Position numbers and translations under genes: made by a program
In this document: piece by piece, positions 1,938 to 7,451 of the stretch
Numbering within the stretch: position 1 is the stretch's first letter
Layout: each line of letters opens with the position of its first letter
Notes under the pieces: generated by a model
Seen by the model: the letters and a program-made list of their open reading frames with translations, nothing else
The model's database searches: none
What the model was told of the DNA's origin: nothing
DNA from: Deltaproteobacteria bacterium RIFOXYA12_FULL_61_11
GTDB lineage: Bacteria; Bdellovibrionota_F; JAHFAK01; YA12-FULL-61-11
Assembly (NCBI GenBank): GCA_001799195.1
Contig: MGSU01000203.1
Coordinates: 1-7,451, forward strand
Reading direction: 5' to 3'
Length of the DNA stretch: 7,451 nucleotides

Positions 1938-3182
1938 TCAACCGCAACCACCCTTCCTGCGCGATAATCCACGCTCGAACCGGACTTTCCTGACGAAATC
2001 GAGACCTTCAAGGGATGAGAGCGGCGGTAATGCGACTCGGTCCCCTCTGGCCGAAGAGAAGAGATGCCGCGTACCCATACTTCCGGTGTCGTCCTCAGTT
2101 CCGGAAGTGCAGCCGGGACCGTGCTCTGGATGGCCGAAGAGATCCAGCCAACCGTCCATTCCTCCCTCGAGGAAATACAGGTTTGGTACCGCCTCGAGGG
2201 CTGCATAGCCCCAGGTTTCCCTGACCCGCCGTCCCCCATCGCCGTCCAGGAGCACGGTGATCGCGTTCCACGGGCGCAGCTTCAAGCTCCGCAACACTTC
2301 GTCAGAGAGGGGGAGGTCTTCCACACGCCTCGCTCCGGGCAGATGGAACAGATTGAAAGAAGTTTCTTCGCGGAGATCGAGCAGCAGGACCTCGACTTGA
2401 TCGTCGTAAAGCAGGAGGAGTAATTCGGCAGGATGGACGGAGACCTCGCCGGAACTGAGGCGGTGCTGCAAGCCCCCTCCCTTCCAGACCCAACGTTGTT
2501 CTCGGGTTGGTTCCCCTCGTACGGCAAGGGCTGCACCCGCAACGATCAGGACCGCGGCACCCGTAAGGAGCAAGGTTCTCCCCCGCCCACTAGGGGCCGG
2601 TTTCCCTCCGATGGTCCTTTCCAGGAATTCCGCTGCGGCGAACATGCTCAGGGCCATGAGGACTACCCCTAACACTACTATCCCCGTGTCCAGACCGAAG
2701 AGCTCGGGCAAGGTCAAGCGACCGGCATGACCAGCGTTCCAGAAATCCTCGAACATGGCCACGGTCTCTGCGAAGAAACCGATACCGACAAGTACCCCGA
2801 GCACGAAGACCAGACCGTCGAGCTTGAGCGTTGCCAGGGCCACCAGCGAGGTTCCGGGGCAGAACCCGCCAATAATGAAACCGAGCCCCATCACAAAACC
2901 GCCGACGAGGCCCGACCACAGGAAGGTGGGATTGACCCAGACTAGGTCATAGTCTAGGAGACCGAGGAAAGACGAGCCAAAGATCAGCACCATGGCCACG
3001 ACAATGGCTCCGAACATTACCTTGAGCACGGTCAACTCAGTCAGGTAGAACTGGGCGGCAAGTTTCTTGGAATTGCCGAAACCCGCCTGCTCGAGGACGA
3101 AACCGAAAGCGAACCCTATCAAGAGATAGATCAGGTCGAGCATCCAGGGGGAGAGGGCTAGGCCGGGAAGATAGGGTGCCAT
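1938..3182 (-). CDS. YeeE/YedE half-transporter fused to an inactive rhodanese-like domain with a GGCG tail
   Basis: A protein of 414 residues. The ATG at 3182 is preceded by a GAGAGGTGAG ribosome site and follows the previous stop by 17 bases. Upstream extension of the frame runs through the antisense of other coding and is not credible. Residues 13-185 form a YeeE/YedE (DUF395, sulf_transp) unit of several helices with the signature G-G-F-C108-P-G-T-S; members of this family import thiosulfate. A last helix spans about 203-221. Residues 246-347 are a rhodanese fold (L-L-L-D-L-R-E, then L-P-G-A, then Y-F-L-E-G-G-M-D-G-W). The active-site loop reads L-L-D313-G-D-G-G-R-R, so the catalytic Cys is replaced by Asp. 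A linker with Cys358 and a basic tail follow, ending Gly-Gly-Cys413-Gly. The positive loop at 189-202 suggests the rhodanese part faces the periplasm. It probably pairs with the preceding half-transporter. Confidence 0.88.
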   Translation of the reverse strand: MAPYLPGLALSPWMLDLIYLLIGFAFGFVLEQAGFGNSKKLAAQFYLTELTVLKVMFGAIVVAMVLIFGSSFLGLLDYDLVWVNPTFLWSGLVGGFVMGLGFIIGGFCPGTSLVALATLKLDGLVFVLGVLVGIGFFAETVAMFEDFWNAGHAGRLTLPELFGLDTGIVVLGVVLMALSMFAAAEFLERTIGGKPAPSGRGRTLLLTGAAVLIVAGAALAVRGEPTREQRWVWKGGGLQHRLSSGEVSVHPAELLLLLYDDQVEVLLLDLREETSFNLFHLPGARRVEDLPLSDEVLRSLKLRPWNAITVLLDGDGGRRVRETWGYAALEAVPNLYFLEGGMDGWLDLFGHPEHGPGCTSGTEDDTGSMGTRHLFSSARGDRVALPPLSSLEGLDFVRKVRFERGLSRRKGGCG

Positions 3183-3199
3183 GAGCTCACCTCTCAGGT

Positions 3200-3724
3200 T
3201 CAGATCCACAAACGGCGAACGAACCAAGCCAGCAGATAGCCGCCGCCAAACACCGCAAACATGAAGGCCCAGCTCCCTGCGGATAGGACAGCCCCACCCG
3301 AGAGTGCCTGGCCCGAGGTACATCCTCTCGCCAGCCTTGCACCATATCCCATGATCGCGCCACCCAGGAAGGCGGTGAGCAAGCGTAGGCGTATGCTGGT
3401 GCGGGGCCCTCGTTTGACCTCGAAACGCACCCTTCGACCCAGCATACCCGACACGAATCCGCCGAGAAGGGCTCCAAGGATCTGGTATACAACCCAATTG
3501 TCGAGCGGATCGAGCTCTCCGCCCGCTGCCTCTGCGAGATACGGCGTGCGATCGACATGCAACGGGGCGACTACATCTACCGCAGCGGCCACGACCCGGA
3601 AGAGGCCTCCCGAAGCTCCTAGTCCGTTGCCGGTGAGAAAGAACGCCGCAAAGAGCACAACCCCGAGTAGAGCTCCGGCAAGATAGGGATTGAGGTAGGG
3701 GCGTTCCCCGATCGTCGTACTCAT
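3200..3724 (-). CDS. YeeE/YedE family half-transporter (sulfur compound permease subunit)
   Basis: A protein of 174 residues. Its ATG (3722-3724) overlaps the stop of the cytochrome b gene as ATGA, and a GAGGAGGG Shine-Dalgarno lies just upstream. The hydrophobic segments (about 14-31, 77-95, 114-130, 143-168), the G-N-G-x-G-A-S-G-G stretch at 32-40 and the signature G-A-R-L-A-R-G-C135-T-S-G-Q mark it as a DUF395/YeeE-YedE member. The conserved Cys is of the kind that handles thiosulfate in characterised YeeE (TsuA) proteins. At 174 residues it is about half the length of full YeeE, and the next gene supplies the second half. The pair therefore resembles two-gene PmpA/PmpB-type permeases. The segment 41-76 between the first two helices is long and polar. 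The substrate is inferred from family and neighbours. Confidence 0.87.
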   Translation of the reverse strand: MSTTIGERPYLNPYLAGALLGVVLFAAFFLTGNGLGASGGLFRVVAAAVDVVAPLHVDRTPYLAEAAGGELDPLDNWVVYQILGALLGGFVSGMLGRRVRFEVKRGPRTSIRLRLLTAFLGGAIMGYGARLARGCTSGQALSGGAVLSAGSWAFMFAVFGGGYLLAWFVRRLWI

Positions 3725-4395
3725 GGTCCCTCCTCGGTGATAGTAGATACAGTCCCGGTTGCACCGACCCCGGTCCTCGAAGGATGCTCGCGACCTGTGA
3801 GCATGGCCCTGAGATGCCCGAAGACGGTCTCACCTGTGGTGGTCAAATAGACATGCAGCAACACGAAAACCAGGAAGAGCCAACTGCCGAAAAGGTGCGC
3901 CCCGGTGAGGATCCCGCGATCGAGCCAATCCGGCAGGTCCGCCCACGACCGGCCTTGGACGAGCATCATGGCGATCCCAGTACCTATCTGGAGCGGCAAG
4001 AGGACATTGAGGATGATCAAATACGTCAGCTTTTGCAAAGGATTGAGCCGTGCCTGGGGGTTCCGTTCGAAGGGATGGGGTGCACCGCGGAAGATGCCTG
4101 AAACATAGTAGCGCGCTTGCGCCACGGCTTGCGAGAAATAATCGGCAGGCGGCCCTAGGAGATAATGGCGAATGGCCCCGCTGACGAGGTGATGGAGTAA
4201 ACCGAAGAGGGCGTTCGCGATAAGGATCAACCCGAAGGTCTTGTGCAGAGGTACGGACACTTCGAAGGCGCGATCGCCCAAGAGCGTGGGCCAGTGCATG
4301 ACGCCGCCCGTGAAGAGTAGGAAGCCGATGATGGTCGCTTGGAACCAATGCCAGAACCGTTCGTACGCTGTATAGATCTGCCGGGTGTCGTTCAT
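3721..4395 (-). CDS. Di-heme membrane cytochrome b (bacterial cytochrome b561 / Ni-Fe hydrogenase cytochrome b type)
   Basis: A protein of 224 residues. The ATG (4393-4395) overlaps the heptaheme gene's stop as ATGA and has a strong AGGAGG upstream, which excludes a longer start at 4506. There are four predicted membrane helices, at about 17-36, 51-72, 122-145 and 163-187. Histidines sit where this superfamily (PF01292) places its heme ligands: H16 in E-R-F-W-H-W-F, H51 in L-H-K-T-F-G, H167 in G-A-H-L-F-G, and H181 in L-L-H-V-Y. Members are the quinone-interacting membrane subunits of hydrogenases, formate dehydrogenases and thiosulfate or tetrathionate reductase-like complexes. Between two multiheme cytochrome genes and two transporter genes, its likely task is to pass electrons between the quinone pool and the periplasmic cytochromes. 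The direction of flow cannot be read from sequence. Confidence 0.9.
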   Translation of the reverse strand: MNDTRQIYTAYERFWHWFQATIIGFLLFTGGVMHWPTLLGDRAFEVSVPLHKTFGLILIANALFGLLHHLVSGAIRHYLLGPPADYFSQAVAQARYYVSGIFRGAPHPFERNPQARLNPLQKLTYLIILNVLLPLQIGTGIAMMLVQGRSWADLPDWLDRGILTGAHLFGSWLFLVFVLLHVYLTTTGETVFGHLRAMLTGREHPSRTGVGATGTVSTITEEGP

Positions 4396-6113
4396 AGTCC
4401 CTTCCTCCTGCGACGATGACCGGTCCAACGCAGACCGCCATGCATCGCAACCGCCGCAAGGGCAAATCCCAGCAGCCCCACTCCGTACCGGTCGAGCCAA
4501 GCCCAAGCGCCATTGCCGAGCATCGCAGGGCTGAGACGCCTCGGTTCGAACCAGGCTTCGCCCTCACTAATCACGATTTCACCCTTCTCCCTCAAGCCAT
4601 TGGTGAGTTCAAGCCTCCCGAGGGGCGAGGAGACGTGGGTCAGTCGCATCGCTCGTCCAGGTCGGCCGTTCTCCGTATGGCATTCGAGGCAACTGCGCAG
4701 GGCCCACGAACCGCCAATGACCCCATGACTGACATGGCGCGCCTCGACCGTGCCGACAAGCTGCAAGCCTCTGTTGCCCAAACCTTCCAATTCTCCTTGT
4801 ACCCAATCCCGGCGCTGATCGGTGTCGAGCGTCAATTCCTCGACCCGCAGCGTCCCATCCCCTTGTCTATCGAAGAGGTCGAGGACCTGTCGGCGGAAGT
4901 CTTGTCCATCGAAATAGACCTTCCGCAGATCGTCCAGAGAAGGTTCTCCGGCAGGCTGGCTTCCCTCCCAATGCCATGTCGTAACCAGGTTGTTCGGATG
5001 CAACCGATGTTGTCCATCGGGATCTGCTCTCTCGATGAGGATCGGTTCGAAGCCCTCGACAGGTGAGACTGCAGAACGTCGCAGGTCCCACTGCACCCCT
5101 CGCAACTCGACCCGAGGGGAGCCGAAGTGGTTCGTCAGGACCGTTCTATCGACCTCGCTGCGAGCAGGGTGGTACGACTTCGGAATGTGACACGTCTCAC
5201 ACGCGAGCTTCGAGAAATGCAATGCTTTGTAAGGTAACCAGGAATGTCGGAGCATGGGATCATGACAATCCTGACAGCGCCGAAGGGATCGAGGATTCTC
5301 GAGGCTGAACTCATGCGAAGGTCGGAGAAGGTACTGTCCCGGAGTTAGGCCACGGGGGTCGAACAGGAGGTGGTTCGCGTCTTCCCCTGTCCTTTTGGTG
5401 AGACGGCGTGCGGGATTATTCGGGGAAAGGTGACAGGCCACACAACCGACCTGGCGTTCGGCGTGTACGTCCCATGGGCGGGTGAGCGTCTCGCGGCCGA
5501 CCAGATTATAGCCGCCGTGACGGAGTTGTTGACCCGAGAAGACCGCTCCGCTCGCGGCACTCAGGGTATCCCCAGGTCGATCGAAGTGCGGTCGTACTTC
5601 TTCCTTCGCATGTACGGTCCGACCATGACACGCACCGCAGTGGCCATCCCGAGGAGGGCCTAGTCCGAGTATCTCGGCAGGAACCTCCCCGGATGGAGAA
5701 AAGCGGTTTCCCTTCCATGCCCACCCCACCAGGGAACGTTCGACCAGCCCGGTGTGGGCCAAGGTGGCGGTTGCTGCCCAACCGAGTTGCCCTGCTTCGA
5801 TCGTGTCAGCGCGCGAGAATACATCGGGAGCTTGGAGATGGCAGAGCAGGCAGTCCAATTCCAACTCACCGGAACGGGTGAGGACAGCGTTTCGGGCATC
5901 CGCCCAACCCAGTACCAACCTCTTGTGATTATTATGTGCTTTGATAAAGACCACGTCATGACACGTTCCACAGGTCCGCTCAGGGGACAACGGCTCACCG
6001 GTTACATGCACGGCCACCCCCGCGGCATCGAGCAAGCGCACCGCGGGATGGAGTCCCTGCGAAGGCAGGACTTCGAGACCCCAGGTCAAGGCGAGCAGGA
6101 ACAGGAACTTCAT
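4392..6113 (-). CDS. Membrane-anchored heptaheme cytochrome c with EF-hand-like loop
   Basis: A protein of 573 residues. The ATG (6111-6113) overlaps the octaheme gene's stop as ATGA, with GGGGAGG a few bases upstream; this start exposes a signal peptide (M-K-F-L-F-L-L-A-L, cleavage near 19-20). Seven C-x-x-C-H heme sites lie at 48-52, 88-92, 159-163, 224-228, 280-284, 305-309 and 475-479, with many extra His residues available as distal ligands. The 165-residue gap between hemes 6 and 7 holds a canonical 12-residue EF-hand loop at 415-426 (D415, Q417, D419, G420, T421, E426). A single C-terminal helix at about 543-561 is followed by H-R-R-R-R-K, so the domain should be periplasmic and the tail cytoplasmic. 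Its place between the octaheme enzyme and cytochrome b suggests an electron conduit or docking subunit. I cannot match it to a named family beyond multiheme cytochrome c. Confidence 0.9.
   Translation of the reverse strand: MKFLFLLALTWGLEVLPSQGLHPAVRLLDAAGVAVHVTGEPLSPERTCGTCHDVVFIKAHNNHKRLVLGWADARNAVLTRSGELELDCLLCHLQAPDVFSRADTIEAGQLGWAATATLAHTGLVERSLVGWAWKGNRFSPSGEVPAEILGLGPPRDGHCGACHGRTVHAKEEVRPHFDRPGDTLSAASGAVFSGQQLRHGGYNLVGRETLTRPWDVHAERQVGCVACHLSPNNPARRLTKRTGEDANHLLFDPRGLTPGQYLLRPSHEFSLENPRSLRRCQDCHDPMLRHSWLPYKALHFSKLACETCHIPKSYHPARSEVDRTVLTNHFGSPRVELRGVQWDLRRSAVSPVEGFEPILIERADPDGQHRLHPNNLVTTWHWEGSQPAGEPSLDDLRKVYFDGQDFRRQVLDLFDRQGDGTLRVEELTLDTDQRRDWVQGELEGLGNRGLQLVGTVEARHVSHGVIGGSWALRSCLECHTENGRPGRAMRLTHVSSPLGRLELTNGLREKGEIVISEGEAWFEPRRLSPAMLGNGAWAWLDRYGVGLLGFALAAVAMHGGLRWTGHRRRRKGL
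4836..4871 (-). other. EF-hand-like calcium loop in the heptaheme cytochrome
   Basis: These bases encode residues 415-426 of the heptaheme cytochrome. The loop has acidic or polar residues at positions 1, 3 and 5 (D, Q, D), Gly at 6, Thr at 7, Leu at 8 and Glu at 12, which is the classical EF-hand calcium ligand layout. It is preceded by a helix-like stretch ending L-D-L-F. A second, weaker acidic stretch (L-D-T-D-Q-R-R-D) follows immediately but does not fit the 12-residue pattern. Calcium binding is inferred. Confidence 0.7.
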
Positions 6114-7451
6114 GGTAGCGTCCTCCCCATTCGAAGTTCCGTACGCCGCCCACCCCATTGGAGGGGATCCCCCGGGTACCCCAGGGCGAGCCAATCCATC
6201 CGGCCCGGCTCGCCGTGACAATCATGGCAGCTCAGGGCTTCCTCAGCCGGGGGAATCATGTGGGAGAGCGGCCAATACATACTCGTCTCGATAAAATCGT
6301 AACTGCCGCTGTACGCGAGCCCATTGCTCTCGGCCCCGAGCCGGAGAGAACGATCCCAGTCGAAAGTCTGCCAATAACCATCCTCGCCGGCGGTCTTCGG
6401 CACGAGCAAGGTGCGGTGGACGAGATCGAAAGGCTGCTTGGCCATATGGATCTTGAAAGGCCATATAAGGGCCTCGGGATCCGTCATCGTGCCACGGGGC
6501 CGATTGATCGACACCTCTTCCCCCTGGCGAACAGGCTGGCCTAGTTGATAGCGCGTGACCGTTCCGTTGAACCAGCGATAGGTCGGCCACAATTCCTTCT
6601 GGTAGACGAACTCCCCCTTCTTCTTCAGGTACCGGTGTTCATCCTCGGGACGATCGTCACCGGCCTTGGACCAATCCCACGAAACCTTGGTAGCGTGCTT
6701 ACGGGCCACCGCCGGCAAGTGGCAAGTCTGACAGACGAGGCTGGTGCGGTGGCTCTCCAGGCGATCATCGTCGTGGATCCTTCCCTGGTGGCAATCCTCA
6801 CAACGCACACAATCCTCACACGTCAGACTTACCGCGAAGGAACGGCCCCGCAACCGATGCTCCTTGCTCCGGTGACAGTCCTGGCAAACGAAGTTGTGTT
6901 TTCCCATGTGCACGTCCAACTCGGGCGTGGGGTTAAGGAGAGCGCTGTCGAGGTCGCCGTGTTTGACCGCATTCCCGCCCCCACCGCTGAAATGGCAAGA
7001 ACCGCAGTTGGCTCTACCCGGCGACCCTACACTCCTGGCCGAGGCCAGCAAGTCGATCCCCGGTTCAGGATGTCCCGCACCTGCCTGGGCTTTGGCATAG
7101 ACACCGCTGCGGTCGTGGCAGACCAGACAATCGACCTTGGTCGCATCATTGAAATCGAAATGCTCATCCGCCCATCCGTAACCCGCATGGCACGAGGTAC
7201 AACGAGGCCAGTTGGACTGGACGCCTATGCAGAAGTTATTGACCGCATTTTTTTTCCCCAAGCGCACGAGGGTCCCTCCCGAGGAGGGGTCGGCCATCTC
7301 CTTCTCCCAGGTCCAGTGCGAGGTGCGCATGACCTCGTGCGCCTGTCGGTCATGGCATTGCAGGCACGTCTTGGTCACTGCCGGACCGTCGGGAAAGGGT
7401 TGGTCGAACAGCGCGGTATGGTCATAATGGACCGCTCGACGGGGAAGATAG
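6110..7451 (-). CDS. Octaheme c-type cytochrome, tetrathionate reductase (OTR) family, 5' partial
   Basis: A partial gene. The frame is open to the right edge, 446 residues are visible (counted from the codon at 7448-7450), and the signal peptide lies outside. Eight C-x-x-C-H sites are present at 29-33, 84-88, 108-112, 149-153, 189-193, 217-221, 240-244 and 408-412. This matches the octaheme count and the family's uneven spacing, with the eighth site far downstream. Diagnostic stretches include H-W-T-W-E, N-N-F-C74 before heme 2 and C-H-A-G-Y-G-W after it, and N-A-V-K163-H-G-D-L-D. In the characterised Shewanella enzyme the active-site heme is ligated by a Lys; K163 is the likely equivalent here, because its spacing to C74 matches the Lys-Cys spacing I recall for that enzyme. 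Homologues reduce tetrathionate to thiosulfate and also nitrite and hydroxylamine in vitro; the physiological substrate is unsettled. First visible gene of the operon. An in-frame GTG at 7378 is not the start. Confidence 0.93.
   Translation of the reverse strand, partial: YLPRRAVHYDHTALFDQPFPDGPAVTKTCLQCHDRQAHEVMRTSHWTWEKEMADPSSGGTLVRLGKKNAVNNFCIGVQSNWPRCTSCHAGYGWADEHFDFNDATKVDCLVCHDRSGVYAKAQAGAGHPEPGIDLLASARSVGSPGRANCGSCHFSGGGGNAVKHGDLDSALLNPTPELDVHMGKHNFVCQDCHRSKEHRLRGRSFAVSLTCEDCVRCEDCHQGRIHDDDRLESHRTSLVCQTCHLPAVARKHATKVSWDWSKAGDDRPEDEHRYLKKKGEFVYQKELWPTYRWFNGTVTRYQLGQPVRQGEEVSINRPRGTMTDPEALIWPFKIHMAKQPFDLVHRTLLVPKTAGEDGYWQTFDWDRSLRLGAESNGLAYSGSYDFIETSMYWPLSHMIPPAEEALSCHDCHGEPGRMDWLALGYPGDPLQWGGRRTELRMGRTLP
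6792..6820 (-). repeat. Short in-frame direct repeat giving CEDC-x2-CEDCH in the octaheme cytochrome
   Basis: The 11-base string CAATCCTCACA (plus strand) occurs at 6792-6802 and again at 6810-6820, a period of 18 bases or six codons. On the coding strand it produces Cys-Glu-Asp-Cys twice. The second copy is a true heme site (C-E-D-C-H, residues 217-221). The first copy (residues 211-214) is followed by Val instead of His, so it should not bind a c-type heme. It looks like an old 18-base tandem duplication. Confidence 0.7.

Follow-up and report, generated by a model that had tools for sequence, protein, structure and literature searches.

A five-gene operon joining an OTR-family octaheme cytochrome c, a heptaheme–cytochrome b561 module and a split YeeE-type transporter is conserved across bacterial phyla

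The structure of OTR, an octaheme cytochrome c of Shewanella, was reportedly published in 2004. Its catalytic heme is ligated by a lysine, and the function of the protein is still termed cryptic (PMC11024163). Channels of the YeeE/TsuA type import sulfur compounds and may be split into two genes, as in PmpB/PmpA (PMC11582611). In sulfur oxidation, SoxY carries sulfur on a cysteine of its C-terminal GGCGG arm (PMC6067878), and SoxYZ has been proposed to feed the importer SoxT1A (PMC11582611). Here we describe an operon in which relatives of OTR and of the YeeE-type channels occur side by side. It lies on contig MGSU01000203.1, which was analysed over its entire 7451 b (the window) and belongs to a metagenome-assembled genome (MAG) of 4.64 Mb in 342 contigs that is 87% complete. 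No description of such a unit was found in the open literature searched (YeeE with octaheme, PhsA/rhodanese, terminal cysteine), whose coverage leaves most subscription journals outside.

The five-gene unit and its distribution

Five minus-strand genes follow one another over positions 7450-1938 in the order OTR, heptaheme cytochrome, cytochrome b561, YeeE1 and YeeE2-rhodanese (Table 1). ATGA stop/start overlaps, visible as tcat at 6110-6113, 4392-4395 and 3721-3724, link the first four, and YeeE2 starts 17 nt downstream of the end of YeeE1. The contig edge cuts the 5' end of the OTR gene and anything upstream of it; the remaining unit is complete in the window. The OTR protein scores 564.7 bits against TIGR04315 (family cut-off 375), matches PDB entry 1sp3 along its length (E 6e-147) and is 46-49% identical to the Shewanella OTRs. 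The lysine ligand of the catalytic heme is kept in 95 of 95 OTR rows compared.

The initial annotation had described the five genes and their overlaps as seen here, and had named conservation of the arrangement across phyla as the point to check. A gene-neighbourhood survey shows such conservation: the same order recurs in many phyla, and co-occurrence of the genes is common rather than rare. Among 386 genomes spread over families, 13 contain an OTR above the TIGR04315 cut-off. Leaving the window aside, 11 of the loci lie on long contigs, and in 8 of these OTR is followed by YeeE1 and YeeE2-rhodanese, together with heptaheme and cytochrome b in five, with cytochrome b only in two and with a nine-heme protein in one (L047). 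A second sample, biased towards the window, took the 80 top-ranking OTR matches from named genomes; 62 of these loci offer at least 5 kb of downstream sequence. Here the transporter pair lies downstream of OTR in 49 loci, while 12 are OTR-only, nine of these from Shewanella; the heptaheme gene is also present in L067 and L123. According to record titles and tree labels, carriers of the unit include Chloroflexota, Pseudomonadota, Gemmatimonadota, KSB1, Myxococcota, Neomarinimicrobiota, Eisenbacteria, Bdellovibrionota, Kiritimatiellota, Spirochaetota, Ignavibacteriota and Bacteroidota, that is, more than ten phyla, mostly uncultured. Recurrence in the family-spread sample rules out a chance or lineage-specific neighbourhood; the operon itself is solid, and so is its conservation.

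The OTR tree has two sides, separated with a split support of 100/99. On the Shewanella-type side, 15 of 21 rows are OTR-only; the other side, with 74 rows, holds all complete units and a single OTR-only row. The window OTR sits in the larger side, inside which its position is without resolution. Placing OTR in a five-gene unit, as had been suggested, is thus appropriate for a large clade reaching across phyla, but not for the OTRs of Shewanella, which are encoded without such a unit.

The plus strand of the window carries three convergent genes beside the operon, encoding a DUF192 protein (8-454), a membrane protein of unknown family (457-996) and a 290-amino-acid protein (1061-1933). The last of these has no Pfam or NCBIfam match, and its stop codon lies 4 nt from that of the operon's last gene.

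Table 1. Features of the operon on contig MGSU01000203.1 (aa, amino acids)
Feature	Position	Strand	Remarks
OTR-family octaheme cytochrome c	6110..7450	-	446 aa, N-terminus (signal peptide) lost at contig edge; 8 CxxCH
OTR heme motif 2, CTSCH, aa 84-88	7187..7201	-	catalytic heme by homology; role from PMC11024163
OTR Lys163	6962..6964	-	aligns with Lys153 of Shewanella OTR (1sp3), distal ligand of catalytic heme
Heptaheme cytochrome c	4392..6113	-	573 aa, 7 CxxCH, OTR fold without OTR motif 2, C-terminal membrane helix
EF-hand-like 12-residue loop DRQGDGTLRVEE, heptaheme aa 415-426	4836..4871	-	from sequence
Heptaheme C-terminal transmembrane helix, aa 538-570	4404..4502	-	from AlphaFold2 model
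Cytochrome b561 (PF01292), quinone-linked membrane anchor	3721..4395	-	224 aa; PF01292 E 8e-20
YeeE1, C-terminal half of YeeE/TsuA-type channel, PmpA-like, GCTSG motif	3200..3724	-	174 aa; PF04143 81 bits
YeeE1 conserved Cys135 (RGCTSG)	3320..3322	-	100% of 66 homologues
YeeE2-pseudo-rhodanese, PmpB-like	1938..3182	-	414 aa; N-terminal YeeE half, last transmembrane helix, Cys-less rhodanese domain, GGCG tail
YeeE2 conserved Cys108 (GFCPGT)	2859..2861	-	50/50 homologues
Pseudo-rhodanese domain, aa ~246-345	2148..2447	-	PF00581 E 2e-10; Foldseek rhodanese fold; no catalytic Cys
C-terminal GGCG tail, aa 411-414	1941..1952	-	Cys413 at 1944-1946

The electron path to OTR

The heptaheme cytochrome is itself an OTR-fold protein. 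It aligns with OTR in hhalign (probability 99.1, E 7e-19), and a Foldseek search with its AlphaFold2 model (predicted local distance difference test, pLDDT, 81) returned 1sp3 as the sole significant PDB match (E 1.7e-7). Its seven heme motifs pair with OTR motifs 1 and 3-8, leaving OTR motif 2, which binds the catalytic heme, and the lysine unpaired. A role as a second catalytic OTR is ruled out by the lack of this motif and the lysine. The same loss has been described for MmcA, an electron conduit (PMC11024163). Because the catalytic heme motif and the lysine are missing from a protein of this fold, the heptaheme cytochrome is probably an electron conduit as well. All seven CxxCH motifs and several further histidines are invariant among 31 homologues, which fits the bis-histidine hemes expected in such a protein; D415 and E426 of the EF-hand-like loop are nearly invariant in the same set.

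Several observations tie this protein to its neighbours. Across the 386 genomes, matches above 300 bits to the heptaheme part are confined to six, and in each of these the protein is encoded next to OTR. In most homologous loci a single gene encodes heptaheme plus cytochrome b. OTR and heptaheme share one 971-amino-acid open reading frame (ORF) with 15 CxxCH in L087, and L101 has an ORF of 1099 amino acids made up of OTR, a remnant with four hemes and cytochrome b. Genes of a MAG might in principle be joined by an error in the sequence, but the two OTR fusions are separate cases, and together with the many fusions of heptaheme to cytochrome b they indicate that the parts are in contact. The heptaheme-cytochrome b module is the likely electron donor of OTR. 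The quinone-linked path through cytochrome b and a multiheme protein that the initial annotation had deduced from family names has thereby gained the backing of repeated gene fusions.

Variants of these multiheme proteins occur elsewhere. Near the OTR unit of Anaerolineales, L069 (4999-7212) and L113 (5381-7696) encode second OTR-type proteins with 15 CxxCH, in which OTR is extended by seven further motifs and a C-terminal helix. A nine-heme protein takes the place of heptaheme and cytochrome b in L047 (12103-13998), L124 (13125-15017) and L131 (3858-5753), that of L131 having a C-terminal cytochrome b561 domain. In L050 (10788-12410), a 540-amino-acid ORF with 23 CxxCH stands directly 3' of an OTR gene that lacks the transporter unit.

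A split channel with a pseudo-rhodanese domain and a cysteine tail

Both YeeE1 and YeeE2 match PF04143 (Sulf_transp) above the cut-off, and no further Sulf_transp gene was found in the MAG. YeeE1 corresponds to residues 238-327 and YeeE2 to residues 6-125 of the Spirochaeta thiosulfate channel TsuA, the two genes being split in the manner of PmpA and PmpB (PMC11582611). Judged by position, the cysteines of the YeeE2 GFCPGT and YeeE1 GCTSG motifs would be the equivalents of TsuA Cys91 and Cys293, respectively (PMC11582611).

The domain following the channel part of YeeE2 has the rhodanese fold, with pLDDT mostly above 90 in the AlphaFold2 model. The cysteine of the catalytic loop is absent from all 61 YeeE2-rhodanese homologues (50 of 50 in the alignment), which have serine, aspartate, glycine or alanine instead; the active-site cysteine of rhodanese 6mxv aligns with a serine of the homologue consensus. 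This absence rules out an active sulfurtransferase role of the domain. What is conserved is a cysteine at the very end of the protein. It occurs within the final four residues in 59 of 61 full-length homologues, in 56 of them as part of GGC, and occupies the alignment column of Cys413 in 48 of 50. Since the final seven residues are disordered in the model (pLDDT <50), they form a flexible tail.

Which side of the membrane the tail faces is a matter of prediction. The loops of YeeE2 assigned to the inside contain on average 2.6, 1.1 and 3.2 lysines or arginines and those assigned to the outside 0.2-1.0. Based on these charges, on the repeat symmetry with YeeE1 and on published work (PMC11073785), the pseudo-rhodanese domain is predicted to be periplasmic, under the assumption that the broken helix containing Cys108 spans the membrane once, as the YeeE1 repeat symmetry suggests. 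Alternatively, the domain and the terminal cysteine might be cytoplasmic and act like YeeD or TusA as an acceptor that pulls substrate through the channel. Such a role would resemble that of the YeeD cysteine, which binds thiosulfate at the cytoplasmic exit of YeeE (PMC11073785), and would suit a MAG in which no TusA protein was found. The loop before the last helix, however, is the one with a mean of 3.2 lysines or arginines, and the YeeE1 repeat symmetry, by which the C-terminus of YeeE1 should be cytoplasmic, would put the domain outside. We therefore regard a cytoplasmic acceptor as quite unlikely. A periplasmic cysteine carrier arm tethered to the channel, as sequence conservation and predicted topology would have it, is the new and most testable idea arising from the locus.

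With respect to the family names given in the initial annotation, OTR, heptaheme, cytochrome b and YeeE are all appropriate, whereas the supposedly active rhodanese on the transporter has turned out to be a catalytically dead domain ending in GGCG. Specificity of the transporter for sulfur compounds, also proposed there, agrees with the match of its halves to those of a thiosulfate channel and with a sulfur theme that recurs in the gene neighbourhoods.

Sulfur context, proposed mechanism and relation to known systems

A profile of YeeE2-pseudo-rhodanese gave strong full-length matches at OTR loci only. Weaker matches in four other loci (L167, L168, L170 and L173) adjoin PhsA/PsrA-like molybdoenzymes and/or NrfD subunits, and those in L172, L174 and L178 do likewise by gene content, judged from sequence starts only. 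PhsA is the best-matching family for these molybdoenzymes, but they score below its equivalog cut-off. A terminal or near-terminal cysteine is present in 10 of 11 weaker-match proteins, whose rhodanese-like region is mostly devoid of cysteine. Thus, transporters of a single type seem to work with two enzymes that are unrelated but both have a sulfur chemistry. No PhsA-type molybdoenzyme gene was found in the MAG of the window, which is incomplete as stated above.

Further links to sulfur come from OTR genes elsewhere. The neighbours of Shewanella OTR best match TtrS (391 bits) and TtrR (227 bits), both under the cut-off; otr of Ca. Sulfomarinibacter is induced 36-fold by tetrathionate (PMC8528874), and soxY-S3 adjoins otr in lucinid symbionts (PMC11237559). 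Another hint at sulfur is an ArsR-type gene with one conserved cysteine, which lies directly 5' of the unit in 24 loci, mostly of Chloroflexota. A sulfur compound is the likely substrate of OTR. Two other arrangements were seen upstream of OTR: an ArsR-rhodanese fusion just 5' of it in L041 (7917-8615), whose rhodanese cysteine is apparently intact, and a divergent XRE/cupin-like regulator (about 8.6-9.4 kb, minus strand) kept in Anaerolineales and related Chloroflexota (L102, L104, L105, L109, L111, L115, L116 and L122).

With moderate confidence we propose that the operon encodes a respiratory periplasmic reductase of sulfur compounds with a built-in hand-over of sulfur to an importer. Menaquinol or ubiquinol would be oxidised by cytochrome b561, and we infer that electrons pass from there through the heptaheme wire, an OTR-fold protein now devoid of the catalytic heme, to OTR. 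At its lysine-ligated heme, OTR would then reduce tetrathionate or some similar compound of the S-S or sulfonate type. This would yield thiosulfate or sulfane sulfur, which might form an adduct with the cysteine of the GGCG tail. Borne by the dead rhodanese domain on the predicted periplasmic face of the transporter, the tail could pass this product on to the YeeE2/YeeE1 channel, and the two conserved cysteines of the channel would relay it into the cytoplasm. The tail would play the part presumed for SoxY towards SoxT, and that of the first cysteine of TsuA, but tethered to the channel.

Several findings weigh against this proposal. OTRs without the transporter exist in Shewanella and others, hence the enzyme does not need it. 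The terminal cysteine is missing from two of the 61 homologues, and placement of the domain in the cytoplasm, its side being predicted, would make the tail a YeeD-like acceptor. No protein of the TusA family (PF01206), the usual cytoplasmic partner, was found in the 87% complete MAG. Finally, nitrite and hydroxylamine are also reduced in vitro by the OTR of Shewanella (PMC11237559, PMC11024163). OTR might accordingly be mainly a nitrite or hydroxylamine reductase and the transporter pair a co-regulated bystander serving sulfur assimilation or another anion. This is very unlikely, given that the pair is tightly conserved with this OTR clade across phyla and that Phs/Psr-like enzymes, too, have transporters of this type next to them.

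A further alternative concerns the direction of electron flow. OTR could oxidise thiosulfate or sulfane sulfur bound to the tail and send electrons via heptaheme and cytochrome b to the quinone pool, given that SoxY-type arms are known from oxidation (PMC6067878) and that multiheme/cytochrome b modules can, in principle, presumably run both ways. Yet in vitro OTR acts as a reductase, tetrathionate induces otr (PMC8528874), TtrSR-like regulators are encoded near Shewanella OTR, and the tail-bearing transporter also accompanies PhsA/PsrA-like enzymes, all of which makes oxidation unlikely. We infer that OTR reduces the sulfur compound rather than oxidising it and that the transporter takes up the OTR product.

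For a large OTR clade, the unit suggests both a dedicated electron donor, namely heptaheme and cytochrome b561 tied to OTR by fusions, and a sulfur-linked partner. The terminal cysteine reduces the OTR question to one residue: whether Cys413 bears sulfur, and how OTR acts on it. That this transporter type is also found with Phs/Psr-like enzymes suggests a general coupling of sulfur respiration to import. It is tempting to go further and suppose, tentatively and at less than even odds, a new class of sulfur importers whose channel carries a tethered, SoxY-like cysteine arm presented by a dead rhodanese. This cassette would be set on two unrelated kinds of quinone-linked enzyme, OTR with its non-catalytic paralogue as wire or Phs/Psr-type molybdoenzymes, so that periplasmic sulfur respiration and uptake share one protein-bound intermediate that is the true substrate or product of OTR.

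Among known systems, Shewanella OTR (SO4144, PDB 1sp3) shares with the window protein the eight CxxCH motifs, the lysine of the catalytic heme and a TIGR04315 score above the cut-off, but falls in another clade and is encoded without accompanying genes for heptaheme, cytochrome b561 and YeeE. MmcA of Methanosarcina resembles the heptaheme protein in its seven hemes, the OTR fold and the loss of motif 2 and the lysine. It is, however, archaeal and Rnf-linked, whereas the window protein is bacterial and comes with an EF-hand-like loop, a membrane helix and cytochrome b561. Membership in the MmcA family is ruled out by a TIGR04314 score of 19.1 bits (cut-off 250), although the two may work alike.

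TsuA/YeeE and PmpA/PmpB likewise consist of two halves with one core cysteine each, encoded by split genes in the case of PmpAB. YeeE2 of the window adds a helix, the pseudo-rhodanese domain and the GGCG tail, and the channel formed by the two halves is without a third conserved cysteine; TsuA/YeeE pairs with TsuB/YeeD, whereas no TusA/YeeD protein was found in the MAG. SoxYZ with SoxT has in common a C-terminal glycine-rich cysteine tail and a YeeE-like sulfur importer, but in the window the carrier is joined covalently to the transporter and the partner enzyme is OTR or, in related loci, a molybdoenzyme. The absence of any SoxY family among the Pfam matches rules out that the tail domain belongs to SoxY, and the likeness is one of analogy only. 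The YTD cluster of sulfur disproportionators also combines a YeeE/YedE-family transporter with a dissimilatory sulfur context; its partners are TusA and DsrE-like proteins, and OTR and a tethered tail lie outside its described genes (PMC12998232, PMC13047784). Phs/Psr-type complex iron-sulfur molybdoenzymes with NrfD, finally, have a molybdopterin enzyme where the window has OTR and cytochromes. They too are quinone-linked periplasmic sulfur reductases, and several of their loci adjoin a similar tail-bearing YeeE pair.

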